From positions 1 to 64,000 of the forward strand of contig JACJWN010000004.1 in assembly GCA_020637165.1 (NCBI GenBank): a DNA stretch of 64,000 nt, read 5' to 3'. This document shows, piece by piece, positions 3,611 to 62,431 of this stretch. The DNA comes from Mycolicibacterium sp. GTDB lineage: Bacteria > Actinomycetota > Actinomycetes > Mycobacteriales > Mycobacteriaceae. The notes under the pieces are model-generated. The model worked only from the letters and a program-made list of their open reading frames with translations, did not search any database and had not been told where the DNA came from. A program made the translations under genes and the position numbers. How positions within the stretch are numbered: position 1 is the stretch's first letter; the number at the start of each line of letters is the position of its first letter.

Positions 3611-5898
3611 CCGAAGATCCTGGGCAGAACCCCTTCCGAGGTGCGGCGCAGTTCCTCCAGTGTGACGCTGAAAAGTCCTTGAACCTCAACGGAATCCGAC
3701 CCCGGATCGGAAACCCCGATCCGGGTGGCGGGCAGACCTCGCGCCTCGCACATCGAGACGAACCGGCTCTCCTCGGTGCGAGGTATAGCGACCAGCGACC
3801 GGCCGGCGGATTCGGAGAACAGGAACACGAACGCGTCGGCGACGGACTCCCACTCGCGCGGAAGCACAAGGCGACAGCCGGTTTCACCGGCCAGGGCCGC
3901 CTCGACCACGGCTTGGATAAGACCACCCTCGCTGAGATCGTGTGCGGCCGAGGCCAATCCGTCCCGGGAGGCCGCGGTGAGCACCTCGGCGAGCAGTTTC
4001 TCCCGGGCCAGGTCGACCCGCGGCGGGACGCCCCCGAGATGCTCGGCGGTGACCTGCGCCCAGATCGAGCCGTCGAACTCGTCGCGGGTGTCACCGAGCA
4101 GGTACAGCGTCTCCCCCGGTTCGTTGCCGAGTCCGGTGGGAAGCCGGCGGCGCACGTCGTCGAGGACGCCGAGAACACCGACCACCGGTGTGGGCAGGAT
4201 GGCCGTGGAACCGGTCTGGTTGTAGAAGCTGACGTTGCCGCCGGTGACCGGAATCCCCAGTTCGGCGCAACCGTCGGCCAGCCCGCGCACGGCCTGGGCG
4301 AACTGCCACATGACGCCGGGGTCCTCGGGGGAGCCGAAGTTGAGGCAGTTGGTGACCGCGACCGGAGTGGCCCCGGTGACCGCGACGTTGCGGTAGGCCT
4401 CGGCCAGAGCTAGTTGGGCGCCGGCGTAGGGGTCGAGCTGGGTGTAGCGGCCCGAGGCGTCGGTCGACACCGCGACACCGCGGTGGGTCTGCTCGTCGAT
4501 GCGCAGCACCCCGCCGTCGGCGTGCTCGGCGAGCACGGTGTTGCCGCGCACGTAGCGGTCGTACTGCTCGGTGATGAACGCCCGGCTGCACAGGTGCGGG
4601 CTGCCCAGCATGCTGAGCAGCGTCACGCGGAGTTCCTCGGCGGTGCCGGGCCGCGGCAGCTTCGCCGAGCCGTCCGCGTTGAGCGCGTCCTGGGTGTCCG
4701 GCCGGCCCAGTGGGCGCTGATAGACCGGTCCCTCGTGGGCCACGGTGCGGGGCGGGACGTCGACAACGGTCTCGCCGCGCCAGGTGATCTTCAGCCGGTC
4801 GCCGTCGGAGACCTCACCGATGACCGTGGCCAGGACGTCCCACTTGGCGCAGACCGCCATGAACGCATCGACGTTCTCCGGGGCCACCACGGCACACATC
4901 CGCTCCTGCGACTCGCTGGACAGCACCTCGGCCGCGGTCATATCGGCCGCGCGCAGCGGCACCTTGTCCAGTTCGATCGTCATTCCACCGTCGCCAGCAG
5001 AAGCCAATTCGGATGTGGCGCAGGACAATCCAGCCCCTCCGAGGTCCTGAATACCGATCACCAGCCCGGCCGAATACAGATCCAGGCAGCATTCGATGAG
5101 GACTTTCTCGGTGAACGGGTCACCGACCTGGACGCTGGGCAACTTCTTGCGTCCGGCGCCGCTCTCGTCACCCGCGAAGGTATCGCTGGCCAGCACCGAG
5201 ACCCCGCCGATGCCGTCCAGTCCGGTGCGGGCGCCGAAGAGGATGATCTTGTTGCCCACCCCGGAGGCGAAGGCCAGGTGCAGGTCCTGCTTGCGCAGCA
5301 CTCCGACGCACATGGCGTTGACCAACGGGTTGCCCGCGTAGGAGGCGTCGAACACCGTCTCCCCGCCGATATTGGGCAACCCCAGGGAGTTTCCGTACCC
5401 ACCGATACCGCGCACCACCCCGTCGAGCACCCGGCGGGTGTCGGGTGCCTCCGCGGGTCCGAACCGCAGCTGGTCCATGACCGCCACCGGCCGGGCCCCC
5501 ATGGCCATGATGTCGCGGACGATGCCGCCCACTCCGGTCGCAGCGCCCTGGTAGGGCTCCACGTACGAGGGGTGGTTGTGCGACTCGACTTTGAACGTCA
5601 CCGCCCAGCCGTCGCCGATGTCGACCACGCCGGCGTTCTCTCCGATACCGGCCAGCATGCAGCGGCGCATCTGTTCGGTGGTGGTCTCCCCGAAGTAGCG
5701 CAGGTGAACCTTGGAGGACTTATAGGAGCAGTGCTCGCTCCACATCACCGAGTACATGGCCAGCTCGGCGTCGGTGGGCCGCCGGCCGAGGATGTCGCGG
5801 ATGCGCTGGTACTCGTCGTCCTTGAGGCCCAGTTCCCGATAGGGCTGCGGGTGGTCGGGGGTTGCCGAAGCGTGCTCGACGGTGTCGACGGAGGTCAC
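3607..5898 (-). CDS. purL: Phosphoribosylformylglycinamidine synthase subunit PurL (small type)
   Basis: 763 residues, the size of the small PurL that works in a complex with PurQ (glutaminase) and PurS, both encoded 2 kb upstream in this window. Catalyses ATP-dependent conversion of FGAR to FGAM. Signatures visible: SEHCSYK near residue 54, the Mg/FGAR-binding VESHNHPS stretch, GGIVRDI and a second AIR-synthase-like half containing NCLNFGSPE and GGNVSFYN. Starts at GTG 5896-5898; the frame reads [11 protein letters not shown]. An internally deleted VOC gene lies directly upstream. The stop overlaps the hydrolase gene downstream. Confidence 0.97.
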
Positions 5899-5920
5899 GG
5901 ACGCTCAGTCTAGTGAGGGG

Positions 5921-6043
5921 CCAGCCCCGAGGCGCGACCACGCAGAACGCGTTGCCATCCGGATCGGCCAGCACCGCCCGCCAGCCGGCCGGCCGCGACG
6001 GGTCGGTGCAGTCGACGGTGATCATCTCCAGCGACAGGCTCAT
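5921..6043 (-). pseudogene. Internally deleted VOC/glyoxalase-like gene (Rv0801-type remnant)
   Basis: An ATG at 6041-6043 with a good ribosome site (GGAAGG, 6 nt away) opens a frame reading MSLSLEMITVDCTDPSRPAGW, which is the first beta strand of a VOC-superfamily protein. It is followed in frame by RAVLADPDGNAFCVVAP, the extreme C-terminus of the same family, so about 75 middle residues are missing. No stop follows the normal end and the frame runs on into purL. The intact family member is about 115 residues. Its place between the M18 aminopeptidase and purL matches Rv0801. Both metal-binding half-sites in the middle are lost, so the product cannot be a working glyoxalase fold. Confidence 0.75.
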
Positions 6044-6057
6044 GGGAACCCTTCCGT

Positions 6058-7329
6058 TCAGTCCGGAGTCAGAAAGGCGTGCAGCGCCGCTGCGTAGGCG
6101 CTGACGTCGTCGGCACCCATGAGTTCGCGCGCGGAGTGCATGGCCAGCTGCGGCGCGCCGACGTCGACGGTCGGAATCCCGGTGCGGGCAGCGGTGATCG
6201 GTCCGACCGTGGATCCGCATGGCAGGTCGGCCCGGTGCTCGTAGCGCTGCAGCGGCACCCCGGCCTTGCTGCAGGCCAGTTCGAACACCGCCGCCGTGCG
6301 CCCCTCGGTGGCGTACCGCAGATTCGGCTGCACCTTGAGCACCGGCCCGCCGTTGACTGCGATCAGGTGTCCGGGTTCGTGACGGTCGGGATAGTTGGGG
6401 TGGGTGGCATGGGCCATGTCGCCGGAAGCCACCGTCGAGGCGGTCAGCAACCTCAGGAAGTCCTGCCGGTCCCCGCCCCAGCCCAGCACGATGCGTTCCA
6501 GTGTGGTCAGCAGGAAATCCGACTGTGCCCCGCGGTCGGAGGACGACCCGACCTCCTCGTGGTCGAAGAGCACCAACACCGGCAGATACCCGCCCGGTTC
6601 GGCGGCCAGCAGGGCCTCCATACCGGCGTAGCAGGTGCCCTGGTTGTCCAGCCGTGGCGCACTGACCAGATCGCCCTGCGCGCCGATGACTCGCGACGGC
6701 GAGAGGTCGTGGGTCATCAGGTCGGCCGCCAGCAGATCCCGCGGCGCCACGCCGGCCCACTCGGCGACGTGGTCATGCAGGGAACGTGACCGGCCGCCGG
6801 CACCCCAGACGGCGTTGAGGTGGCGCTGCGGGTCGATCCTGACTGTGGCTCGGTCCTCGGCGAGATGGATGGCCAACTGCGGCACCCGAAGCAGCGGTTC
6901 GTCGATGCGGACCAACTCCTGGCGGACCCCACCCTCGGCATCGGGGTCACGAACAGAGAGCCGGCCGCTGAGCCCGAGGTCTCGGTCCAGCCAGGAGTGC
7001 AACCACGCCCCGCCGTAGGGCTGCAGGGCCACCACCTGCCAGCCCGCCACCACCCGATCGGGATGCTGTTTGACCCGCAGGTTGGGGCTGTCGGTGTGCG
7101 CGCCGACGATCCGGAACGGCCGTCGGTGACCCGCCCCGCTCCAGGCGAGCACCGAACCGCCCCGCACGGTGAAGAACCGGCCCCGGTCGGTGCCGCTCCA
7201 ACGATCGGTCTCGGCCAGTTCGGTGTAGCCGGCCGCGCGCAGCCGTCCGGCAACGGTGGCGCAGACGTGGAATGGCGACGGGGAGGCGTCGACGAACTCG
7301 CACAGCCCCTGCGCGGTGGCACCGGTCAT
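6058..7329 (-). CDS. pepC: M18-family aminopeptidase
   Basis: 423 residues, full length for the M18 (aspartyl aminopeptidase-like) dinuclear zinc peptidases. Visible metal and catalytic motifs: [13 protein letters not shown] near residue 93, DHEEVGSSS (Asp, Glu, Glu pair) in the second half, and a late AMHSARE histidine. Cytosolic removal of N-terminal residues from peptides. Lies 7 nt from the purQ stop and on the same strand, so it is likely the third gene of a purS-purQ-pepC unit. Corresponds to Rv0800. Confidence 0.93.
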
Positions 7330-7336
7330 CTCAGCG

Positions 7337-8020
7337 TCAGGTATCTGAGGCGGCCAGGACCGCGTCGAGAACGGAGTAGAAGATCCCGAGCCCGTCGTCC
7401 GACGGCCCGGTCAACGCCTCGGTGGCGTGCTCGGGATGCGGCATCAGCCCGACGACCCGACCGTTGGCCGAGCTGATCCCGGCGATGTCGCGCATGGAGC
7501 CGTTGGGGTTGTCCGCGTAGCGGAACACCACCCGGCCCTCGCCCTCGAGTTCGTCGAGCGCCGATTCGCTTGCCACATAACGACCTTCGCCCGATTTCAG
7601 CGGGACGAGCAACTCAGCGCCCCACTCGAAGCGCGACGTCCATGCGGTGGTGATGGAGTCCACCGTGAGCCACACGTCCCGGCAGACGAAGTGCAGACCG
7701 GCATTGCGGGTGAGCGCACCCGGCAGCAGTCCCGCCTCGCACAGGATTTGAAAGCCGTTGCAGATACCCAGCACCGGCATCCCCCGGCCAGCCGCCGCCA
7801 CCACCTCGGTCATCACCGGGGCGAACTTGGCGATCGCCCCGCAACGCAGGTAGTCGCCGTAGGAGAAGCCCCCCGGCACCACCACCGCATCCACTCCGCG
7901 CAGGTCGGCGTCGGCGTGCCAGAGGCTCACCGCCTCGGCGCCGGAGAGCCGGACCGCGCGGGCGGCGTCGACGTCGTCGAGAGTGCCCGGGAAGGTGATG
8001 ACCCCGATGCGGGCGGTCAC
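7337..8020 (-). CDS. purQ: Phosphoribosylformylglycinamidine synthase subunit PurQ (glutaminase)
   Basis: 227 residues, class I glutamine amidotransferase that delivers ammonia to PurL. Nucleophile Cys87 in VLGICNGF, and the PHPEHATE segment supplies the His/Glu of the triad. The GTG start (8018-8020) overlaps the purS stop as GTGA, which ties the stoichiometry of PurS and PurQ. In mycobacterial literature the gene is also called purG. Confidence 0.97.
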
Positions 8021-8256
8021 GACGGTTCCCGGGTGATCGACCAGTCCTCGATCACGGTGTTGGCCAGCAGTGATTCGGCGACCTCGGCTAGCTCGTCGTC
8101 GGTCACGGTGTCATCCACCTCGAGTTCAAACCGCTTGCCCTGCCGAACCTGAGAGATACCGGGATGCCCGAGCCGGCCCAGTGCCCCCACGATGGCCTGG
8201 CCCTGGGGGTCGAGAATCTCGGCTTTGGGCATCACTGCCACAACTACCCGAGCCAC
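8017..8256 (-). CDS. purS: Phosphoribosylformylglycinamidine synthase subunit PurS
   Basis: 79 residues, usual length for PurS. Starts [20 protein letters not shown] and contains the GKRFELEV beta strand that the family uses for dimer and PurL/PurQ contacts. PurS bridges PurQ and the small PurL for ammonia transfer. First gene of purS-purQ-pepC. A TAGGAT element on the minus strand about 40 nt upstream (near 8294-8299) could be its -10. Confidence 0.93.
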
Positions 8257-8308
8257 TGCAAGCTCCTCTGACGTCGGCGGACGATGCGGATCAAATCCTA
8301 CCGGCGGG

Positions 8309-8977
8309 TCACGGGCAGGAGTCGACGTAGGCCGTGCACAGCGGCGCGCCGAGCGCGTCGAGGACCGCGGTGTCGGTGATCGACGGCCAGGGAGTCTGCG
8401 GCGGGGCGTCGGACCAGAGTGCCAGTTCGGTGACGGTGCTGTTGACGGGATCGGCCAGCAGGTACTGGTGCAGGATCACCGGTCCGCTGACCACTGCGGC
8501 CATTCGGTCGGGCTGGTCGACGATCAGCGACCCCGAGGCGCCGGGGTTGGTCGCTTGGCAGTCCCGCAGCGCGGCGACGGCCGCGGCGACGGTCTCCTGT
8601 GCCAGCTGGCCGCCGCGCCAGGTCTCACCGCGCCAGTGCAGCACCTGGGCCTGCAACTGCCACTGGCCGGCCGGGTTGGAGACCACCGAGCGCTCGGCCA
8701 CCACGTACCCGCGGGGGTCCCCGGCCGTCGGGGCGGTGGCGCACAGTTGCTCGAACTGGAACCGCGGCGCCCGGGCGGTGACCGCGAGCCCAGCCAGATC
8801 AGGCCAGGAGTAGACATCGTCGAGCGGGATCGCCGACGGCGCGATCCATGCGGTCGGGGGAATCCGGTCGCAGGCCGGCGGACAGGTGCTCATCGGCTCC
8901 GCCTTCGACGGCGGCGCGACAGCGGAACTCAGGATCAACGCGGAACCCACCGTCAACACTGCGAGGGCCATTCGCAT
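8309..8977 (-). CDS. Secreted protein of unknown function
   Basis: 222 residues when started at the ATG 8975-8977, which has a strong AGGAGG ribosome site six bases upstream; a longer reading to 9037 would overlap the divergent MBL gene and has no such site. The N-terminus MRMALAVLTVGSALILSSAV is a signal peptide with a likely cut near PSKAEP. The mature part has several cysteines (two near the N-terminus in TCPPACD, one in LCATAP, one in LRDCQ, two near the C-terminus), suggesting disulfides. No motif I recognise. It follows purS on the same strand but with its own start signals. Confidence 0.8.
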   Translation of the reverse strand: MRMALAVLTVGSALILSSAVAPPSKAEPMSTCPPACDRIPPTAWIAPSAIPLDDVYSWPDLAGLAVTARAPRFQFEQLCATAPTAGDPRGYVVAERSVVSNPAGQWQLQAQVLHWRGETWRGGQLAQETVAAAVAALRDCQATNPGASGSLIVDQPDRMAAVVSGPVILHQYLLADPVNSTVTELALWSDAPPQTPWPSITDTAVLDALGAPLCTAYVDSCP

Positions 8978-38615: not shown

Positions 38616-39485
38616 GTGACAGTGCGAGCGGTCCTCGGCTACGACGGCTCGCCTGCCGCGGCAGGCGCTATTGAGGCGGGTGCACAACTGTTTCCGGGGG
38701 CGCACGCGTGGATCACCTATCTGTGGGTTCCGCCGTTTGCCAGTGAACAGATACGTCGGCGGCTGTGGGCACAGGCGCGCAACATCGACGATCTGATCGC
38801 CGCGGAGGATCGCGAAGGTGAGCGCGAAGCACGCCGGATCACCGCGATGGGCGTGACCTTGGCCGGTGCCGCCGGGTGGGACGCCACCCCCCTGCTGGAG
38901 CGAACCTACGCAGCCGAGGGGACTGCGATCGCGCAGACCGCCGAACGGGTCGATGCCGATCTGGTAATTGTCGCCGCTCGCGGTCTCGGCGGTGCTGCCT
39001 CGGTGTTGGGCAGCGTGTCGGACATGGTGGTGCACTACTGCTCGCGTCCGGTTCTCGTCGTCCCCCAGCCACTGTTGTCCGAAGAGTACGACGCACTTCT
39101 GGACGGGCCGATCGTGGTCGGATGGGACGGCTCGGAAAGCGCGGGGACCGCCTTACAGACAGCTGAGCGCCTCTTTCCCGATCGGCGAATCGTCGCGGTG
39201 TCGGTCGATGACGCCACCAAAGTGCCGGCGCAGCCCGATGCCGACTCGAACGGTCGACTCGTCCACGTTCACATCGACCGCGGCCGCGGCCGCCAGGCTC
39301 GCGGGACCGCCACTGCGATCGTCGCGGCCGCCGATGAGCAGCGCGCTGCCGCGGTCGTCGTCGGTTCGAGAGGACGATCCGCCGTGCGGGAGATCATCCT
39401 CGGCAGTGTTGCGATGGGCGTACTGCACGAGAGCCACCGGCCGGTGATGGTGGTGCCGAACCGATCACAGCCGGAGGGCTCGTAG
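38616..39485 (+). CDS. Universal stress protein, tandem USP domains
   Basis: 289 residues from GTG 38616 (CAGGAG six bases upstream). Two USP domains: 1-150 with VLGYDGSPAA and GSVSDMVVHYCSRPVLVV, and 160-289 with VVGWDGSESAG and the ATP-binding G-x2-G-x9-G-[S/T] type loop GSRGRSAVREIILGSVAMGV. The second domain probably binds ATP. Convergent with a second USP gene. I looked for a DosR box upstream and saw none. Confidence 0.9.
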   Translation: MTVRAVLGYDGSPAAAGAIEAGAQLFPGAHAWITYLWVPPFASEQIRRRLWAQARNIDDLIAAEDREGEREARRITAMGVTLAGAAGWDATPLLERTYAAEGTAIAQTAERVDADLVIVAARGLGGAASVLGSVSDMVVHYCSRPVLVVPQPLLSEEYDALLDGPIVVGWDGSESAGTALQTAERLFPDRRIVAVSVDDATKVPAQPDADSNGRLVHVHIDRGRGRQARGTATAIVAAADEQRAAAVVVGSRGRSAVREIILGSVAMGVLHESHRPVMVVPNRSQPEGS

Positions 39486-39554
39486 CCAGCCGACGAATCA
39501 CGCGTAGCCGACCACCGCGCCCGGGACGTCGGGCAGCGACCCTCCCTCCCGGCC

Positions 39555-40208
39555 CTAGGTCCGATCCGCAGCGCGGTCCGGCCTATCGGCCGGCGGCTCG
39601 ATCACCAGAACCGGTATCTGAGAGCGCTCGACGACATCGGCCGACACGCTGCCCATCATTCGTCCCGAACGCCCTTTTCCGCGCCGGCCGACAACGAGCA
39701 CGTCCATGTCCTGACCCTCGGCGAACCGCCTCAGCGCGGGGCCGGGTGGGCCGGTCAGCACTTCGGTGTGCACGGCCCCGGCGATCGAAACCCGGGCGGC
39801 TACCGTCGCCAGCCTATCCGAGGCTGCCTCGATCACGTCTCTCCTGACGGACTCAGTCGCGTCAAAGGGGACGACCTCTGCGAGCACTATCAAGCCGCAG
39901 TGCGTCCCGAACAGGGCAAGCACGGTCTCTAATGCCCGGCCGGACGGCTCCGAGCCGTCCAGCCCCACCAGTACCCGGATCCCGGTCCCGGTCCGACCCG
40001 GCGGCTCGCCCGTCTGGCCGAACTCAGCCACACCGGGACTCCGCCTGATCCGCTCCAGGGCGATCGGGATGAACAACGGCCCCAATGGAAGCGCGAGCAA
40101 GACCCAAAGCGGGTCATACCCACGCCGGGCCATCAGCAGGCCGGACACCAGCCCGATGAGGGGCCAAAGGACCGAAAGCATGACCACGACAGTTGTACTC
40201 ACGGCCAC
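39555..40208 (-). CDS. Membrane-anchored universal stress protein
   Basis: 217 residues. Unusual: residues 1-55 contain two hydrophobic stretches (about 5-27 and 32-50, a PLD-nuclease-N-like hairpin), then a linker and one USP domain (about 75-205) with VLVGLDGSEPSG and GRRGKGRSGRMMGSVSADVV, the ATP-binding loop. So this USP would sit at the membrane with its domain in the cytosol. GTG start; no partner gene in frame. Confidence 0.82.
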   Translation of the reverse strand: MAVSTTVVVMLSVLWPLIGLVSGLLMARRGYDPLWVLLALPLGPLFIPIALERIRRSPGVAEFGQTGEPPGRTGTGIRVLVGLDGSEPSGRALETVLALFGTHCGLIVLAEVVPFDATESVRRDVIEAASDRLATVAARVSIAGAVHTEVLTGPPGPALRRFAEGQDMDVLVVGRRGKGRSGRMMGSVSADVVERSQIPVLVIEPPADRPDRAADRT

Positions 40209-40289
40209 AACTCTGCCGGAACAACGTCGAGACGGCCAAAGTGCGAACCGGTCCCAGTACCGGTCGTCGCAGTGCCGGGCGGCGCAGCC

Positions 40290-41588
<1,299 letters not shown>

Positions 41589-41658
41589 CGTCGGCTCTCC
41601 TTCGGCATCGCCGGGGAGGTGTTGCCCCGGCGGACGTCGACGAGGATGTCGGCGGGGT

Positions 41659-41696
41659 GTTTCAGAAACGCGGCAGTGATGTTTCAACCGTGTTTC
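41659..41696 (-). promoter_or_regulatory. Candidate GlnR-binding region upstream of amt
   Basis: On the minus strand GAAAC-N6-GAAAC (41681-41696) gives the AC-n9-AC spacing used by GlnR, and a further TGAAAC/GTTTC pair lies at 41659-41669. The place, 71-108 bp upstream of the amt start, suits nitrogen-limitation control. Confidence 0.45.
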
Positions 41697-41737
41697 GCCG
41701 GTCCCCGGCGCCACCGGCCCGCACTACTCGCCCAGCG

Positions 41738-42244
41738 CTACCAGCCCCTCGTGCCCGGGCCGCCCTTGAACGGACCGACCACCCGGCTGGTGATCCAGCC
41801 GCCGTAGAACCCGCCCGGCTGCGGGACGACCGTCTCGCCGTCGACCGTGCAGCGGTCCACCTGCCCGGCCATGACCGCGACGGCGTCGGCGAGCGGTTCG
41901 AAACCCGCAGTCGGTGCCGGGTAGCTCCAGGCCGCCCCGGCCGCCACCCTCGCCGGGGTGACGAGGTCGAAATAGCGAGCCCGACCCTTCCACTCGCACC
42001 ACGACATTCCCGGGGCGTCCCGCAGAACACCGGGGCGGAATGCGCTTCGGGGCAGGTAGTAGGAGGGGGGATGGCTGGTCTCGAGCACCCGCCAGGCATG
42101 GTCGGCCGTCGCGATCGTCTCGCCGCCGAGGTCGACGGTGATGGTGGCCGCGATCCTTTCCAACCGCGGCGGGCGGGGGTAGTCCCACACCGACTCCTGC
42201 CCCGGGCCGGGCCGCTCCGGTTGCGGACGCACGCTGCCCTCCAA
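41738..42244 (-). CDS. DUF427 protein
   Basis: 168 residues. Contains the DUF427 landmarks VLETSHPPSYYLPR, CEWKG and YPAP. Function of the family unknown. ATG or GTG start at 42244, 6 bp after the SDR stop, so likely cotranscribed with that gene. Confidence 0.82.
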   Translation of the reverse strand: MEGSVRPQPERPGPGQESVWDYPRPPRLERIAATITVDLGGETIATADHAWRVLETSHPPSYYLPRSAFRPGVLRDAPGMSWCEWKGRARYFDLVTPARVAAGAAWSYPAPTAGFEPLADAVAVMAGQVDRCTVDGETVVPQPGGFYGGWITSRVVGPFKGGPGTRGW

Positions 42245-54973: not shown

Positions 54974-55005
54974 TCTTCACAAGTGTGACCGGAAGGCGGA
55001 CCGCC

Positions 55006-55800
55006 ATGGCCCCCGAAGATGCCCATGCCCTGATCGAGCAACGCGGGCCCGTCCTGATCGTGACGATGAACCGTCCGGAGGCGCGCAACGCGCTGTCCGG
55101 CGAGATGCTCTCGATCATGGTGGAGGCCTGGGACCGCGTCGACAGTGATCCCGACATCCGGGTCTGCATCCTCACCGGAGCCGGCGGATACTTCTGCGCC
55201 GGTATGGATCTCAAGGCCGCCACCACCAAGCCCCCGGGCGACTCGTTCGCCGACGGCAGCTACGACCCGTCGCGGATAGACGGCCTGCTCAAGGGCCGGC
55301 GGCTGACCAAGCCGCTGATCGCCGCCGTCGAAGGTCCGGCGATCGCCGGCGGAACCGAGATCCTCCAGGGCACCGATATCCGGGTAGCCGGCGAAAGCGC
55401 CAGATTCGGCATCTCCGAGGCGCGTTGGAGTCTGTATCCGATGGGCGGTTCCGCGGTGCGACTGGTCCGCCAGATTCCCTACACCATCGCCTGTGATCTG
55501 TTGCTGACCGGTCGGCACATCAGCGCCCCCGAAGCTCGCGACTACGGGTTGATCGGGCATGTGGTGCCGGATGGGCAAGCCTTGGCGCGGGCGATGGAGA
55601 TCGCCGAAGTGATTGCGTCCAACGGCCCGCTGGCCGTACAGGCCATCCTGCGCTCCATCCGCGCGACAGAATGTATGCCCGAGAACGAGGCATTCAAGAT
55701 GGACACCAAGATCGGCATCGAGGTGTTTCTGAGCGAGGACGCCCGAGAGGGTCCGCGGGCCTTCAAGGAGAAGCGGGCCCCGCAGTTCAAGATGCGCTGA
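55006..55800 (+). CDS. echA19: Enoyl-CoA hydratase EchA19
   Basis: 264 residues from ATG 55006 (GGAAGG nine bases upstream); a GTG at 54985 would add seven residues. Crotonase fold with oxyanion hole [11 protein letters not shown] and AGGTEI, and a late Glu in ARWSLYP region. Hydrates the steroid side-chain enoyl-CoA. Last recognisable cholesterol gene before the sortase island; 92 bp separate it from the sortase start. Confidence 0.94.
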
Positions 55801-55850: not shown

Positions 55851-55896
55851 CATACTGCGACCCATGACGCCCGCCGAGCGTTTCGCGCGAAAATGA
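55851..55896 (+). promoter_or_regulatory. Promoter -10 and 10-codon leader ORF before sortase
   Basis: CATACT (55851-55856), 7 nt, then an ATG at 55864 opening MTPAERFARK and a TGA (55894-55896). That TGA overlaps the sortase ATG (55893-55895) as ATGA. The leader ORF would be leaderless, and ribosomes ending it could re-start on the sortase gene, which has no other good ribosome site. Confidence 0.5.
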
Positions 55897-56564
55897 CAGC
55901 CAGTCGCGCAGCAGTGCGTCGTGCGCTGCAATGGACCGGCGAGATCGTGATCACCATCGGGGTGATTTTGGCGCTCTTCGTCGTCTATTTGCTGTGGTGG
56001 ACCGGCGTGCAGACAGCCGGCGCGCAGCGCGGCCTGGCCGCCGAACTCGATCGCGCGGCCCAGACCGCGGCTATCGCGCCGAATGGAACGTCGGGTGCCC
56101 CGTTGGTCGATCCGGCACCGGCCGTGCCCGCGGTGGGTAAGCCGTATGTGCAGATCCGGAGTCCGGCACTGGGCGCCGACTGGAGTTGGATCGTAGTGGA
56201 GGGCGTCGATTTGCCACAGCTGGCACTGGGTCCGGGACACTATCCCGGCACCGCGGGCCCGGGTGAAGTCGGTAACTTCGCCGTCGCCGGGCACCGCGCA
56301 GGCCACGCGGCACCGTTCGAGAATCTTGATCGACTCAAGCCCGGTGACGTGGTGAACTTCTCCGTTGGCGACCGTCATTGGTCTTACCGAGTCGAGCGGT
56401 CGTTTCTGACCGAGCCCACCGACATCGGGGTCATCGAACCGGTCCCGGAACAGCCGAACGCCGTCCCGACCAAGAGACTGATGACGCTGACGACATGCGA
56501 TCCGAAGTACGGGGTTCGGTTCCAACGATTGATCGTCGTCGGCACATTGATCGAGGAGGGCTGA
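55893..56564 (+). CDS. Class E sortase
   Basis: 223 residues. One TM segment (about 16-36), then a sortase beta-barrel with catalytic His134 (AGHRAGHAAPFENLDRLKPG), Cys202 (TLTTC) and Arg209, ending FQRLIVVG. The TLTTC-x-P and the LAxTG-type target encoded three genes downstream fit class E. The enzyme would cut the sorting signal between Thr and Gly and attach the protein to peptidoglycan on the outer face. First full gene of a tightly packed set. Sortases are rare in mycobacteria, so this looks acquired. Upstream in-frame codons to 55671 lie in echA19 and are discarded. Confidence 0.93.
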   Translation: MTASRAAVRRALQWTGEIVITIGVILALFVVYLLWWTGVQTAGAQRGLAAELDRAAQTAAIAPNGTSGAPLVDPAPAVPAVGKPYVQIRSPALGADWSWIVVEGVDLPQLALGPGHYPGTAGPGEVGNFAVAGHRAGHAAPFENLDRLKPGDVVNFSVGDRHWSYRVERSFLTEPTDIGVIEPVPEQPNAVPTKRLMTLTTCDPKYGVRFQRLIVVGTLIEEG

Positions 56565-56719
56565 TGTACGCCGCTTTGTGGGCACTGCTGCCCGGACCGA
56601 CGCCGGTTCGAGCGTTGATCGCGCTGGTCCTGGTGGTGGCCGTGGTCGTCTTGCTGTTCACGGTGGTCTTTCCGTGGGCCAGCCAGTTCGTCCCGGGCCA
56701 AGACGTCTCCGTTGGCTAG
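56564..56719 (+). CDS. 51-residue single-TM protein, sortase-associated
   Basis: Opens MYAALWALLPGPTPVRALIA, then a hydrophobic helix (about 18-40) and FPWASQFVPGQDVSVG. The ATG overlaps the sortase stop (TGATG). I recall very similar small membrane proteins (MYxxLWxxLPGPxxxR, FPW) next to class E sortases and in the pknB/crgA region of actinobacteria, so this is likely a partner or processing subunit. No catalytic residue is visible. Too short for usual gene callers. Confidence 0.8.
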   Translation: MYAALWALLPGPTPVRALIALVLVVAVVVLLFTVVFPWASQFVPGQDVSVG

Positions 56720-57560
56720 TTCCGGGCCGGGGCGTTCGCCTGCCCGGTGGGCGGTGGTCTGTCTGATCGCCGGGTCAGCGGTATGGCTCGGGTTTCGGTT
56801 GTTCGAGCCCCCGGCTGTGCCGGCGGCAACAGTCGGTGCGGCGCTGGTCAGTTGGAGCGGCTACGCCGCATTGCTGAGCGCGGTCGTGGTGAAACTGGCT
56901 CGCAGCGTTCGGCCGCCGGTTTGGGCTGCGGTGCTGGCCACGCTGTGGGGTGGTTCGGCCGCGGCGGCCTTCGCCGAGCTGATCGCCTCGGTGACACGTG
57001 ATCGGATCGCCGACGCGTTGGGTCCGTCGGGCCAGGCGTGGACCTCCGCGCTGGCAGCACCGTTGCCCGAGGAAGTCGTCAAAGCCGTCGGTGTTGTGCT
57101 GCTGATGATGGCGGCCACACCAGCCTTGCGGAATCCGCTTTTTGGAATGACCCTTGGGGCGCTGGTGGGGATCGGTTTCAATGCGGCCGAAGGACTCGCC
57201 TACAGCGTCTCGGAAATGACAAGATCGGGGTCATGGGACCCGTTGTGGTCCGATCTGCTCGTTCGAGGGATCCTCACCGGTCTCATCACCCATGCAGGGC
57301 TGAGCGCCATCGTCGGTGCCGGCGTCGGATATTTCTTCGGCGCGGTGGACGCCGCCTGGACGCGACGTTCCGGTGTGCTTGTCGGACTGCTCGTCGCCGC
57401 GGTCGTACTGCACACTCTCATCGACACTCCACTCCTGGATGAATGGGGCGTTGGCGGCGTGATCGTCAAGCAGATACCGGTGGCCGTCGCGGTCTGGGTT
57501 TTGAGGGGCCCAGCGCGATCGGAGTATCTTCGACTTCAACGCCTAGAGCGTCGACTGTAA
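56712..57560 (+). CDS. PrsW-family intramembrane metalloprotease
   Basis: 282 residues, about eight hydrophobic segments. Signature acidic motif PLPEEVVKA (Glu120-Glu121), FNAAEGLAYS with Glu160, and membrane histidines His194 and His234, matching the PrsW/glutamic-type membrane protease layout. TTG start overlaps the preceding small gene by 8 bases, so translation is coupled. PrsW proteins perform regulated intramembrane cleavage of membrane-anchored factors. Here the nearest candidate substrate is the LAHTG protein encoded next. Confidence 0.85.
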   Translation: MASSGPGRSPARWAVVCLIAGSAVWLGFRLFEPPAVPAATVGAALVSWSGYAALLSAVVVKLARSVRPPVWAAVLATLWGGSAAAAFAELIASVTRDRIADALGPSGQAWTSALAAPLPEEVVKAVGVVLLMMAATPALRNPLFGMTLGALVGIGFNAAEGLAYSVSEMTRSGSWDPLWSDLLVRGILTGLITHAGLSAIVGAGVGYFFGAVDAAWTRRSGVLVGLLVAAVVLHTLIDTPLLDEWGVGGVIVKQIPVAVAVWVLRGPARSEYLRLQRLERRL

Positions 57561-57593
57561 GAGGCTACGGTCGAATCTGACCTGAATCATGCC

Positions 57594-57620
57594 GGTGCCA
57601 CATCATTTTGATGATGCACC
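57594..57620. promoter_or_regulatory. AT-rich imperfect inverted repeat before the LAHTG-protein gene
   Basis: GGTG-cca-CATCAT-tttg-ATGATG-CACC, with a three-base bulge on the left. Lies 20 bp before the start codon, in the only AT-rich gap of the island. Could be an operator or a weak hairpin; no T-run follows. TTATAT at 57623-57628 may be a -10. Confidence 0.45.
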
Positions 57621-57640
57621 AGTTATATCGAGGAGTTCTG

Positions 57641-59863
57641 ATGGCGGCCGCGAATCGAATCAAGGTCGTTCTGCTCGACGCCGGGACCATTACGAGCGAC
57701 GGGCTCACTCGTGTCGCCGAGTTCGCCTCTGAAGTCATCGTGGTCGGGGAACGGCGGCGAAGCGATGTCGTCGAGCAGCTGCAAGCCCGTGGCGTGAAAG
57801 TCACGGTTGAACAAGGCAAAGCCGACATCGAATCAGCCATACTTACCGCCGCACGGTCCGAGGCTGTCGTCGTCATTACAGGACGCCCCGCGAAGGCCGA
57901 GGTATTCGTCCGCAATGCCGCGCACGGCGCCGCCAACGCGGTAGAGCAGGGCCTGCCGGCAGTCGGGGTGTACGTACTCGGCGAACACGAGACCAGGCCG
58001 GGCAAAGTGTTCACCGTCAGCGAGACGGGCGAGCTGTCCGGCTACGAACCGTTGTTTGCCGCCGCCCTCGCCGAGCAGCTTGGCCGGGAAGTCGTCGCCG
58101 TCACCCCACCGGGACGCATTCGAGCCGCTCGCACCGTTTCGGAGCATCCTTCGCTCGGCGGCGCCGAGAACGTGAGCGAACGGGCTCACGAAATCGCTGC
58201 GCTTGCAGGAGTTAATTGGACCGAGCGGTCTGACCCGAGTCCGGTCAACTCCGTGATCGAGGAGTCCGGACACGCCGCGGTGATCATTGTCGGAGTGCTG
58301 GACGTGCCGTCCGGACCCAAGTGGCTCGGCTCGCGACCGAAGGTCGACGCGGGCAACCCCGCAGCCGCGGTCTCCCTGGTAGCCGACGCGTCGTGCGACG
58401 TCATGGTGGTCTTCGACGGCGTGCACTTGACGCACGAGAAGTTATCCAAAGACCAGGCCGCGGCGATACTCGGGCTCGGCCTGATGACCACGGGAGCAGC
58501 CGCCGCTGTCGCAACCCCGGCCAGCGCCATGCTCGGCCACGTCACCAAGTCGATCACCCAGCAGGCCCGCACCTACCGCGCCGATATCGGCGACTCCGAC
58601 AGGGGTGACGCGTCGAGTTCGGCTGACGCCAAAGACTCCGATACCAAAGACTCCGAGTCCAAGGACGCCGACTCCGGCTCGCGCGGCGCCTCGAGCTCGC
58701 ATCGCTCCGCCACGGGGGGCGCGAGTACCCACAAGGCCCCCAAGACCACACTTTCCGCTTCGACGGTGCACACTTCCACGCACTCGGGTACATCGGATGC
58801 AGGTGCAGGCACCTCAGGCTCCTCCATCCCCTCCACGCGCAGCGCACACCCCGTGCCGGCACCTGCCGCCGCGCACGGCGCACACGGCGCGCCGGCCGCG
58901 ATAGATCTCGGCAACCTTCCCGCGCCGCCGCCGCCACCGCCACCACACAACCAGGGCAACAACCAGGGCGATGGGCTGCGTGACGGTATCGGCGGCCATG
59001 ACGCATGGGGCCACTCGTGTGACCGCGGGCACTCAAGCCATTGCGACGACCCTTCGCATTTCCCGCCGCAGACGACCGGCGGTACCGGCACCACCAACAC
59101 CCAGCCACCCACCGGCGGCACCAACACACAGCTCACCGAGCCTCCGACCCCGCATCCGGTGCCGATAGCGAAGCCTCACCCAGTGCCGCATCAGGTCCCC
59201 ACCCCCACACCACAGGCCACCCCCCAGGCCACGCCGCATCTGGTGCCGACGCCGGTGCCGGGCGGGCCGACCCCGAATCCGGTGCCCCACCAGGTCCCCA
59301 CCCCCACACCACAGGCCACCCCCCAGGCCACCCCGTATCTGGTGCCGACGCCGGTGCCGGGTGGGTTGACTCCGCAGCAGGTGCCGCATCAGGTCCCGAC
59401 GGCCACGCCGCAGGCCACCCCCCAGCAGACGCCGACGGCCCAACAGGTGACCAACCAGACCCCGACGAGGCAGGTCCCCACCGGCACCCCGACCACTGGT
59501 GGTGAATTTGTCCCGCAGCCGGGGAACACGGAGGTTCCGTGGTCCACGTTGACGGCGCAGACCAACACGGGTGCTCCGACACCCGGGTCGGGTGTGGTGC
59601 CCGGTGATCCTGCTTCGGGAACGCCGACATCGGTGGTGTCCGCCGGGCACAACGTCGGGGAGCAACCCAGCCACATCGGACCCGCGGCTTTGGGCCACGA
59701 GCAGGGAGCTCCGCCCGAGGGCGAGTTGGCTCATACCGGCGCCGATGGAGTTGGCGTGCTCGCCGGCATGGCGGCCTCACTGATTGCAGCCGGAAGTGGT
59801 TTGGTGATTGCCGGTCGGCGCAAGAAGGACGATGAGGACGACGATCCTGCCGCCGCTGATTAG
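57641..59863 (+). CDS. LAHTG sortase substrate with N-terminal alpha/beta domain and Pro-rich stalk
   Basis: 740 residues from ATG 57641 (GAGGAG six bases upstream); an earlier ATG at 57608 lacks such a site. Order: 1-265 soluble alpha/beta region without a signal peptide, weakly USP-like (for example HAAVIIVGVLDVPSG and VADASCDVMVVFDG); 273-296 Ala-rich hydrophobic stretch; 300-400 Ser/Asp/Lys- and Ser/Thr-rich linker; a His/Cys-rich patch at 58997-59059; 500-660 Pro/Thr/Gln repeats; 696-700 LAHTG, hydrophobic helix, RRKK and an acidic tail. The end is a textbook class E sorting signal. The N-terminal half looks cytosolic, so the protein would span the membrane twice until the sortase cuts it. 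No homologue recognised. Confidence 0.88.
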   Translation: MAAANRIKVVLLDAGTITSDGLTRVAEFASEVIVVGERRRSDVVEQLQARGVKVTVEQGKADIESAILTAARSEAVVVITGRPAKAEVFVRNAAHGAANAVEQGLPAVGVYVLGEHETRPGKVFTVSETGELSGYEPLFAAALAEQLGREVVAVTPPGRIRAARTVSEHPSLGGAENVSERAHEIAALAGVNWTERSDPSPVNSVIEESGHAAVIIVGVLDVPSGPKWLGSRPKVDAGNPAAAVSLVADASCDVMVVFDGVHLTHEKLSKDQAAAILGLGLMTTGAAAAVATPASAMLGHVTKSITQQARTYRADIGDSDRGDASSSADAKDSDTKDSESKDADSGSRGASSSHRSATGGASTHKAPKTTLSASTVHTSTHSGTSDAGAGTSGSSIPSTRSAHPVPAPAAAHGAHGAPAAIDLGNLPAPPPPPPPHNQGNNQGDGLRDGIGGHDAWGHSCDRGHSSHCDDPSHFPPQTTGGTGTTNTQPPTGGTNTQLTEPPTPHPVPIAKPHPVPHQVPTPTPQATPQATPHLVPTPVPGGPTPNPVPHQVPTPTPQATPQATPYLVPTPVPGGLTPQQVPHQVPTATPQATPQQTPTAQQVTNQTPTRQVPTGTPTTGGEFVPQPGNTEVPWSTLTAQTNTGAPTPGSGVVPGDPASGTPTSVVSAGHNVGEQPSHIGPAALGHEQGAPPEGELAHTGADGVGVLAGMAASLIAAGSGLVIAGRRKKDDEDDDPAAAD
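59183..59380 (+). repeat. 99-bp tandem coding repeat (33-residue units)
   Basis: Two complete 99-bp units start at 59183 and 59282, nearly identical; a third, diverged, starts at 59381. They encode VPHQVPTPTPQATPQATP followed by a LVPTPVPGG-type segment. The close identity suggests recent expansion, as in length-variable cell-wall stalks. Confidence 0.88.
59726..59860 (+). other. C-terminal sorting signal (LAHTG, helix, basic stop)
   Basis: Codons for LAHTG (59726-59740), then a Gly/Ala/Leu-rich helix of about 24 residues, RRKK and an acidic DDEDDD tail. LAxTG is the class E sortase target. Confidence 0.9.
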
Positions 59864-59920
59864 TCGCTAGTGGTTCCGGGGATGAGTATTTCTTTCGACC
59901 TTGTCGACTGAGGGGCGATC

Positions 59921-62431
59921 ATGGCCAGTCTGTTGCACCGTGCGTTGCGAGCCGGCGAGGGGAGGTCGTTTTCCCGCATCGAAGAGCTCGCCGCCCGGGT
60001 CAACGCCATCGAAGGCGACTTCGAGGAGCTGACCGATGCGGAGTTGCGTGGGTTGACCGATCGGTTTCGACGCCGTTTCCAGGATGGAGCGTCGACCGTC
60101 GAGCTGTTACCCGAGGCGTTCGCCACCGTTCGGGAGGCATCGCGACGCACATTGGGGCAGCGTCACTTCGACGTCCAGGTGATGGGCGGTGTGGCGCTCC
60201 ATCTGGGGAATATCGCCGAAATGGCGACCGGCGCGGGAAAGACGTTGGTGGCGAGCCTTCCCGCCTACCTGAATGCGTTGAGCGGCCGGGGAGTACACAT
60301 AGCCACGGTCAACGACTATCTGGCTGCGCGCGACGCGGAGAAGATCGGGCGCATCCACCGGTTCCTTGGACTGAGTGTTGGGGTCGTGCTGTCCGACATG
60401 GATCCAGAAGCCCGCCGACGCGCCTATCTTGCCGATATCACCTACGCCACCGGCACGGAGTTGGGATTCGACTATCTCCACGACAATATGGCCCCTTCGT
60501 GGGACGTCGTCGTGCAGCGCGGCCACAACTTCGTGGTGGTCGATGAGATCGATTCGGTGCTGATCGATGAGGCCCGCACCCCGCTGATCATCTCGGGACC
60601 CGCAGAATCGGTCTCCGACGAGTACGGGTTATTCGCGGCACTCGTCGAGGAGCTGGTGGCCGACCACCACTACGAGCTCGATCACAAGCTCAATATGGTT
60701 GCGTTGCTTGACGCCGGCATTGACGTCGTCGAGGCGAAGCTGGGAGTGGATAACTTCTACCGTCCGGAGCTCGGAGGGCGGATACGGATGATGGAGAACG
60801 CCCTAAAAGCCAAGGAGCTGTTCGTCCGTGACCGCGACTACATTGTGGCTGGCGGTGAAGTCCAGATCGTTGACGTGAGCACCGGGAGGGTGCTTGAGGG
60901 GCGCCGCTTCAACGACGGCCTGCACCAGGCGCTCGAAGCCAAGGAGGGTGTCGAGGTTCAACCCGAAAACCAGACGCTCGCGACGATCACCGCGCAGAAC
61001 TACTTCCGTCTCTACGAGCGGGTTTCGGGCATGACGGGGACCGCCCGCTCAGCCGCACCGGAGTTCCAGCGGACCTACGGCCTGGCGGTAGTGCAGATCC
61101 CCGATCGCAAACCGCCGCAGCGAATCGATCGCAACGACAAGATATTCCGCACCAATCGGGCCAAGCTCGAGGCGGTCGCCGAGAGTGTGGCCGACCGGCA
61201 CAGACGCGGGCAGCCCGTGCTGATCGGCACGGTCAGTGTCGAGAAGTCAGAGCAGCTCTCCGATGTCCTGCGTGAACGCGGTATCCCCCATAACGTGCTC
61301 AACGCCCGCCACATCGACAAGGAGGCGGCAATCGTCGCCCGCGCCGGTCGACTGGGCGCCGTCACAGTGGCCACCAACATGGCCGGGCGCGGCACCGACA
61401 TCATGCTGGGCGGCAACCCCGAATTCGAGGCAGAACTCGAACTGCGGGAGCGAGGTTTTGATCCGGTCGCCGACCCGGAGGCCTACGAGCGCGAATGGCT
61501 GCCGACGCTGGAACGCAAACGCGCCGAGAGCCGCGATGAGCACAAACACGTGATCAGCATCGGTGGTCTCTGCGTCATCGGCACCGAACGCCATGATTCC
61601 CAACGCATCGACGACCAACTTCGTGGGCGGTCCGGCCGGCAGGGCGACCCCGGAGAGACCCGGTTCTACCTCTCGCTGGAAGACGACCTACTACAACGCT
61701 TCAAGGTCGACTGGATTAAGTCGTTCCTCCGCAGCCTGCACTTGGCGCCGAACGAGGCGATCAAGAGTCCCCAACTCAGCGCCGTTATCGATGCCGCCCA
61801 GGCCGAGGCCGAGGCGGTCGGATTCGAGGAACGTAAATACGTCCTCAAATACGACGACATTCTCGACGGGCAGCGCCGCGCAGTCTACGAATCGCGGCAG
61901 GAGCTGATGACCAGCGACGACATCCACGAGCAAACCCGGTTGATGATTCGCCACGTCCTGCATGACCTCGTGTCGCAGGCGCGGGTCCGGCACGACGACG
62001 ATGACGACGCCGATTCACTCTTCGAACAACTCGCCCGTCTTTACCCGATTGCCGTCGATCGAGAACAGCTGGAGCGCATGGCCGGCTCCCGGCGGGCGTG
62101 GCACGACCTCGTTGACCTACTGATAGACGACACCGATCGGATTCTCGGCGCCCTGCAGCGTAACTTGGGCCGCGACGAACTGATCGCCTTCGAGCGACGC
62201 ACCATCCTGACGATCCTCGACCGGCGTTGGCGCGACCACCTCTACGAACTCGACACGCTGCGCGACGCAGTCCAGTGGCGTGCCTCGGCCGGTCGAGATC
62301 CCTTCGTGGAGTTCACCGCCGGGGCGACTCACCGCTTCGACCACATGTCCAAGGACATCGAAGCCGAAGTCGCCCAAGCGGTGCTGGCCGGACCACCAGA
62401 CGGAATTCAACTCACGTTTTCGCGACGCTAG
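59921..62431 (+). CDS. Accessory SecA-family ATPase
   Basis: 836 residues, with GAGGGG five bases before the ATG. Nucleotide-binding domain 1 has MATGAGKT (101-108; canonical SecA has TGEGKT) and DEID (208-211) with DEARTPLIISG; the preprotein cross-linking domain and NBD2 with NMAGRGTDIMLGG and QLRGRSGRQGDPG follow, then helical scaffold. It ends LTFSRR with no CxCxSGxxxxxCH zinc tail. Resembles canonical SecA more than mycobacterial SecA2 in size, but is clearly an extra copy given its setting. Leu TTA codons (60107, 60629) are foreign to this GC-rich context. Stop overlaps the convergent cyp142 stop. Confidence 0.9.
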   Translation: MASLLHRALRAGEGRSFSRIEELAARVNAIEGDFEELTDAELRGLTDRFRRRFQDGASTVELLPEAFATVREASRRTLGQRHFDVQVMGGVALHLGNIAEMATGAGKTLVASLPAYLNALSGRGVHIATVNDYLAARDAEKIGRIHRFLGLSVGVVLSDMDPEARRRAYLADITYATGTELGFDYLHDNMAPSWDVVVQRGHNFVVVDEIDSVLIDEARTPLIISGPAESVSDEYGLFAALVEELVADHHYELDHKLNMVALLDAGIDVVEAKLGVDNFYRPELGGRIRMMENALKAKELFVRDRDYIVAGGEVQIVDVSTGRVLEGRRFNDGLHQALEAKEGVEVQPENQTLATITAQNYFRLYERVSGMTGTARSAAPEFQRTYGLAVVQIPDRKPPQRIDRNDKIFRTNRAKLEAVAESVADRHRRGQPVLIGTVSVEKSEQLSDVLRERGIPHNVLNARHIDKEAAIVARAGRLGAVTVATNMAGRGTDIMLGGNPEFEAELELRERGFDPVADPEAYEREWLPTLERKRAESRDEHKHVISIGGLCVIGTERHDSQRIDDQLRGRSGRQGDPGETRFYLSLEDDLLQRFKVDWIKSFLRSLHLAPNEAIKSPQLSAVIDAAQAEAEAVGFEERKYVLKYDDILDGQRRAVYESRQELMTSDDIHEQTRLMIRHVLHDLVSQARVRHDDDDDADSLFEQLARLYPIAVDREQLERMAGSRRAWHDLVDLLIDDTDRILGALQRNLGRDELIAFERRTILTILDRRWRDHLYELDTLRDAVQWRASAGRDPFVEFTAGATHRFDHMSKDIEAEVAQAVLAGPPDGIQLTFSRR

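Follow-up and report, generated by a model that had tools for sequence, protein, structure and literature searches.

Genomes of its genus nearly always lack a sortase, which raises the question of what a class E sortase gene is doing in a 64,000-nucleotide stretch of Mycolicibacterium sp. DNA (GenBank assembly GCA_020637165.1, contig JACJWN010000004.1, positions 1 to 64,000; hereafter the window). The gene heads a block of five plus-strand genes encoding, in order, the class E sortase (SrtE), a 51-residue membrane protein, a PrsW protease, a 740-residue protein with a C-terminal LAHTG sorting signal (the LAHTG protein) and an 836-residue SecA, the third of its genome, which we call SecA3. A first-pass annotation had read these genes as a self-contained export and wall-anchoring system. 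We consider it probable that the block specifies a dedicated SecA-sortase system for the export and wall anchoring of one protein, possibly with processing by PrsW. In support of this are the linkage of the genes in a fixed order, the motifs kept by the sortase, PrsW and SecA3, the constraint on a short segment of the substrate, and the presence in the genome of a single sortase and a single LAHTG-type tail. Thus the conserved unit, the lone sortase and the lone tail support the earlier reading in part; the LAHTG protein, however, opens with a 268-residue domain and not with a signal peptide, and the annotation makes no mention that its signal-like helix is internal.

All five same-strand genes were confirmed by profile searches and by their coordinates, and the same order was seen in other genomes. 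The sortase gene (223 codons) lies at 55893..56564, the gene for the 51-residue protein at 56564..56719, that for PrsW (282 residues, TTG start) at 56712..57560, that for the LAHTG protein at 57641..59863 and that for SecA3 at 59921..62431. The overlap of the first three genes, already remarked in the annotation, was borne out: the sortase and 51-residue frames share TGATG at 56562-56566, and the 51-residue and PrsW frames share 8 bases (56712-56719). Gaps of 80 and 57 bases precede the LAHTG and SecA3 genes, respectively. The sortase start had to be moved, since the position first given for it, 55851, has no start codon in frame; ATG 55893, which aligns with the relative HKST-UBA35, is most likely the start.

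In order to see whether the five genes travel together, as the annotation had proposed checking, we compared the loci of other genomes. A sortase scan of a species-genome collection, which reaches close relatives only and may omit the genomes nearest to that of the window, returned three loci, all labelled Mycobacterium. Mycobacterium sp. M26 carries all five genes in order, with identities of 77, 88, 59, 59 (N-terminal domain of the LAHTG protein) and 78%. In the metagenome-assembled genome HKST-UBA42, four genes run to a contig end inside the LAHTG gene, and a second contig, which starts or ends in the LAHTG repeats, continues through LAHTG to SecA3 (90% identity), so that the order is the same apart from an assembly break in the repeats. 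HKST-UBA35 shows four genes before its contig ends within the LAHTG gene. Because this order recurs, the arrangement goes beyond chance. The flanks differ: an enoyl-CoA hydratase gene lies upstream in the window (54985-55800) and in HKST-UBA35, a 2-hydroxyacid dehydrogenase gene in HKST-UBA42 and a bestrophin-like gene in M26. Downstream, an opposite-strand P450 gene (62428-63624) follows in the window; searches with the window's downstream frames detected none of them next to SecA3 in M26, and in HKST-UBA42 only the frame overlapping SecA3 itself. Since the order is kept while the flanks differ in three lineages, the block is a unit that keeps its gene order in different places. Counts given below as 4/4 genomes refer to the window and these three relatives and represent about three separate lineages, HKST-UBA35 being near the window (99% identity across residues 1-330 of the LAHTG protein). 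In M26, the block is preceded at a distance of about 1.3 kb by a gene with a TniQ domain (transposition; 5727-8621 of locus L018), which may bear on the block's mobility.

The annotation of the first gene as a class E sortase was upheld, with 206.3 bits against NF033747 (cut-off 160) and 92.8 bits against PF04203, and matches to the PDB sequences 5go5 and 5cuw. The catalytic residues His134, Cys202 and Arg212 align with class E-like PDB chains, and the motifs are present in 4/4 genomes; an N-terminal hydrophobic segment begins at residue 18 (Kyte-Doolittle (KD) hydropathy 2.65). A GHY motif at residues 115-117 is shared with 5go5, 5uus and 5utt. Its Tyr117 may correspond to Tyr229 of SrtE1, the Tyr of the beta3/beta4 loop (PMC5148588), the SrtE1 chain 5cuw aligning only from residue 120. 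The same paper gives LAXTG as the class E sortase signal, which LAHTG fits. The genome (3.85 Mb, 32 contigs, 94% complete) holds no sortase other than this one.

The 51-residue protein is strongly hydrophobic (KD 3.45 across residues 18-36) and is 98, 96 and 88% identical in the three relatives; the window's copy had no match in Pfam or NCBIfam at E 0.1. Its profile found matches in 91 of 118 genomes of the class at E <= 0.1, of which 86 also pass E <= 0.01. Among the 24 loci that were read (L084-L107, the strongest matches rather than a random draw), 23 had a same-strand sortase gene directly upstream, L105 being the sole locus without a sortase match, and the window's PrsW had no match at E 1e-3 within about 1.5 kb on each side (less in some). 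Because the profile matches most genomes of the class and stands beside sortases where its loci were looked at, the protein is a widespread companion of class E sortases; as a correction to the earlier reading, it is not special to this block. With a sortase upstream in nearly every locus and PrsW in none, the sortase and its companion form an old pair, and the special additions of the block are PrsW, the LAHTG protein and SecA3. The companion, present in most of the class genomes sampled, is a separate lead worth study.

The LAHTG protein has the architecture of an LPxTG-like substrate at its C terminus, with LAHTG at residues 696-700, a hydrophobic stretch at about 706-724 (KD 2.04) and RRKK. 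The tail scored just above the cut-off of TIGR01167 (LPXTG_anchor; 16.9 bits vs 15.9) and below that of NF058582 (20 vs 27). To answer the annotation's question about other LAxTG proteins, the genome was searched with a profile of the tail built from two sequences; the protein itself was the only match below E 0.1, and five more lay at 0.17-6.8. When the stop-to-stop frames of at least 80 residues in the 64 kb were scanned for a sorting motif followed by a hydrophobic stretch and a basic tail, again only this protein was found, the scan being strict enough to miss M26's own LAHTG tail, which has no Arg or Lys in its last 12 residues. Because the genome has one sortase and one LAHTG-type tail, the sortase and the LAHTG protein look like a private pair. 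Residues 318-705, which include the LAHTG motif, contain 68 Pro, 55 Thr and 34 Ser among 388, with a 99-base (33-residue) repeat in 2.5 copies. A frame change in the LAHTG gene of M26 was considered and rejected, as an assembly gap (a run of N) accounts for it.

At the front of the LAHTG protein, residues 1-268 (57641..58444, the N-domain) precede a signal-like helix at about 272-296 that ends in TPASA, a near-invariant segment at 297-317 (58529..58591) and the Pro/Thr/Ser-rich repeats. Since the protein opens with a 268-residue domain and not a signal peptide, an unusual export route would be needed. Residues 1-330 are conserved in the relatives (85% identity in HKST-UBA42 and 64% in M26), and TPASA is invariant in 4/4 genomes. 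The 21 residues behind TPASA, a candidate export-targeting segment, show one change among the genomes compared, in M26. In the comparison of the window with M26, 1/21 codons of the segment was nonsynonymous against 98/257 in the N-domain (Fisher p 0.0014) and 7/13 in the codons directly after (p 0.002); the segment was picked after the alignment had been viewed, and these p values are optimistic.

The N-domain itself had no Pfam match above cut-off, and a search of the PDB gave no lead (best E 0.44). Its second half showed a faint likeness to 12 of the genome's own universal stress protein domains in hhalign (P 6.7e-4, probability 27%); for the first half the probability was 2%, and PF00582 (universal stress protein) was unmatched. 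The idea that the whole N-domain is a universal stress protein was not supported. An internal duplication was not supported either. The genome has 14 matches to the universal stress protein domain, three of them at 38628-39977 in the window, some 16 kb upstream of the block.

As the annotation had stated, the last gene encodes a full additional SecA. SecA3 scored above both general SecA models (1010.6 bits vs 814 for PRK12904, 954.6 vs 800 for a second equivalog) and below the cut-offs of all four SecA2 models (575.9/725, 716.7/930, 822.3/1085 and 599.3/1100). The genome holds three SecAs, including a SecA2, and SecA3 is 53% identical to its SecA1 and 34% to its SecA2. Among the listed matches from 249 genomes in the order, identity to SecA3 did not exceed 55%, and the next-best SecA reached 929 bits, compared to 1846 for SecA3 itself. 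Trees placed SecA3 outside the SecA1 of Mycobacterium and Nocardia, and a recent copy of mycobacterial SecA1 was rejected (p-AU, from the approximately unbiased test, 0.0039; 0.011 with Nocardia added) with a quick tree in which SecA3 sits on a long branch. SecA3 thus appears to be a separate lineage, neither a SecA2 nor a recent SecA1 copy. The protein keeps the motor motifs Walker B, MTGT, NMAGRGTDI and QLRGR and lacks the C-terminal tail and zinc motif. Its Walker A (residues 101-108) reads MATGAGKT in the window and HKST-UBA42 and MATGSGKT in M26, whereas 36/36 other SecAs read have GEGKT.

The third gene product, an intramembrane metalloprotease of the PrsW type, scored 92.8 bits against PF13367 (cut-off 23.5) and only 21.5 bits against the equivalog NF033739 (cut-off 225). 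The motifs PEExxK, FNAAE, THxGL and LHxLID are present in 4/4 genomes and agree with EExxK, FNxxE and two His motifs, which we take to be the hallmarks of the family. PrsW of Bacillus cleaves a membrane-bound anti-sigma factor.

Taken together, these features suggest the following order of events. SecA3, together with the ordinary SecYEG channel, would recognise the internal signal-like helix of the LAHTG protein and the 21 near-invariant residues behind it, and would push the Pro/Thr-rich part out while the N-domain is kept in the cytosol. Signal peptidase might cut the chain after TPASA, or PrsW might cut it nearby. The sortase, with its 51-residue companion, would cleave LAHTG between Thr and Gly and link the protein to the cell wall, and PrsW may clear or release the membrane remnant that bears the N-domain. 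Every transport, cutting and anchoring step here is inferred. A dedicated route is suggested because of gene placement, SecA3 being found only with the block.

Several observations weigh against this scheme. The signal-like helix is internal and weakly hydrophobic (KD 1.78), and a hand count of the charges around it (a net charge of about 0 ahead of it and about +2 behind it) disfavours an N-domain that stays inside. The constraint on residues 297-317 comes from one comparison, that of the window with M26; the window and HKST-UBA42 by themselves gave 0/21 vs 39/268 in the N-domain (p 0.09). The Walker A Glu that all the other SecAs read possess is replaced in SecA3, and SecA3 was not found in HKST-UBA35 (83% complete, 450 contigs). 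The five genes include no SecY2 or chaperone gene. In addition, LAHTG by itself is no proof that the sortase and the protein belong together, because SrtE1 also accepts Pro in the sorting signal, according to PMC5148588.

The explanation that competes best with a dedicated system, unlikely in our view and still to be taken seriously, is that the sortase, the 51-residue protein and the LAHTG protein form an anchoring system served by SecA1, with SecA3 doing something else (other exports, or a backup motor) and PrsW acting as a regulator. Class E sortase substrates elsewhere are exported by the ordinary Sec pathway, the SecA3 gene comes last in the block after the 57-base gap, and the pairing of SecA3 with the substrate is inferred from context rather than from a direct link. 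Against this explanation stand the finding of SecA3 only with the block, where it adjoins the LAHTG gene in differing neighbourhoods, and a substrate that is an unusual preprotein.

A further proposal builds on the dedicated system and is doubtful: the release of the N-domain could be coupled to export. SecA3 would export the protein from its internal signal, the sortase would fix it to the wall, and PrsW would then cut the remaining stub, so that the wall protein's own N-domain is freed in the cytosol and reports export or wall integrity. If true, wall anchoring would here come with a signal of its own, in bacteria normally without a sortase.

It is very unlikely that the LAHTG gene yields two products, namely a cytosolic N-domain protein and a wall protein that starts at the internal ATG 58403 ('MVVFDG') with a 42-residue signal peptide. 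This Met255 is invariant in 4/4 genomes (HKST-UBA35 being nearly identical to the window), and a signal-like stretch ending in AxA does fall within 42 residues of it; however, Met255 lies inside a well conserved part of the N-domain, no clear ribosome-binding site was seen before it by eye, the n-region would be slightly acidic, and in 4/4 genomes residue 1 and the helix are joined by a single frame without a break. Finally, the thought that the N-domain belongs to a membrane signalling protein anchored to the wall on the outside, with export secondary and PrsW as the main actor, which cuts the protein when wall or envelope stress pulls on the anchor and so frees the N-domain, can draw on the Bacillus precedent, on the overlap of the PrsW gene with the sortase pair, on its four intact motifs and on the faint stress-protein likeness of the second half of the N-domain, but is highly improbable given an N-domain without a fold recognised by sequence, five genes that include no sigma factor or regulator, and a helix that ends in a signal-peptidase-like motif.

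The block is rare. As the annotation held, the genus normally lacks sortases: 12/396 of its genomes carry one, that of the window included. Strong N-domain matches occurred in 3/396 genomes of the genus, all three within the sortase-bearing set, and in the family (301) and class (246) samples only in the window's own genome. Weak partial matches (E 6e-5 to 0.01) were found in 6/301 family, 6/396 genus and 5/246 class genomes, one genome being counted twice; of three that were scanned, one was part of an aldehyde dehydrogenase and two matched nothing above cut-off. At E <= 1e-285, SecA3 was present in 1/268 genus genomes, the window's own; M26, which carries SecA3, stands outside this tally, presumably because it was not drawn. 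The nine other sortase-bearing genomes of the genus (L019, L021 and L022-L028), several of them fragmented, showed no SecA3, and the stretches fetched from them had no PrsW, SecA3 or N-domain match at E 1e-3. One of them, L019 (1020 contigs, listed contamination 6%), has two LAxTG-type tails. A plasmid origin was rejected: at E <= 0.01 the N-domain was absent from the plasmid records of the collection, the SecA matches in 132 plasmid records all fell below 60% identity, and a match from a Tsukamurella "plasmid", near raiA and mtrAB, looks like a chromosomal SecA1. Scans for promoters (0 found vs 0.9 expected) and terminators (5 found vs 4.1 expected) were uninformative. Elsewhere in the window, AT skew is strong at 40001-42000 (0.218, the maximum for the window at the step size used), where the underlying gene resembles an ammonium transporter by eye.

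The combination was not described in the titles and abstract openings found in the open-access literature. Every part except the N-domain is of a known kind; the combination, its mycobacterial setting, the separate SecA lineage and the layout of the substrate did not come up in that literature. If the block works as proposed, covalent attachment of proteins to the mycobacterial wall would be possible, and the motor and substrate genes, lying side by side, would offer a simple natural setting for asking how an extra SecA selects one substrate.

Four known systems invite comparison. The site-1 protease PrsW of Bacillus subtilis shares its Pfam family and motifs with the protease of the block, which differs by its low equivalog score and by standing among five genes without an anti-sigma factor. 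Mycobacterial SecA2-only export likewise uses an extra SecA motor that is thought to work with ordinary SecYEG; the genome of the block has a SecA2 too, however, from which SecA3 is a separate lineage. The SrtE systems of Streptomyces and other Actinobacteria resemble the block in their class E sortase and LAxTG signal (PMC5148588) and, from our own analysis rather than that paper, in the 51-residue companion directly downstream. The block differs in its host genus and in setting the sortase beside PrsW, one substrate and a SecA. A parallel in working is the SecA2-SecY2 system for serine-rich repeat proteins (SRRPs), to which the annotation had likened the extra SecA. According to PMC6973325, SRRP systems have a dedicated SecA, a long atypical signal sequence and a targeting segment (AST domain) behind the signal. 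The block, too, has a SecA gene beside that of a Ser/Thr-rich, presumably wall-anchored substrate, a long atypical region before the signal and a constrained segment behind it. On the other side, SecA3 scores higher with SecA1-type than with SecA2 models, the block encodes a sortase, and its substrate starts with the 268-residue domain compared to a signal peptide of about 90 residues in the SRRP system. No SecY2, Asp or glycosyltransferase gene turned up in the block or in the flanking proteins that were scanned, a search that did not extend to the remainder of the genome. Overall, the likeness to the SRRP system is one of working, not of membership.

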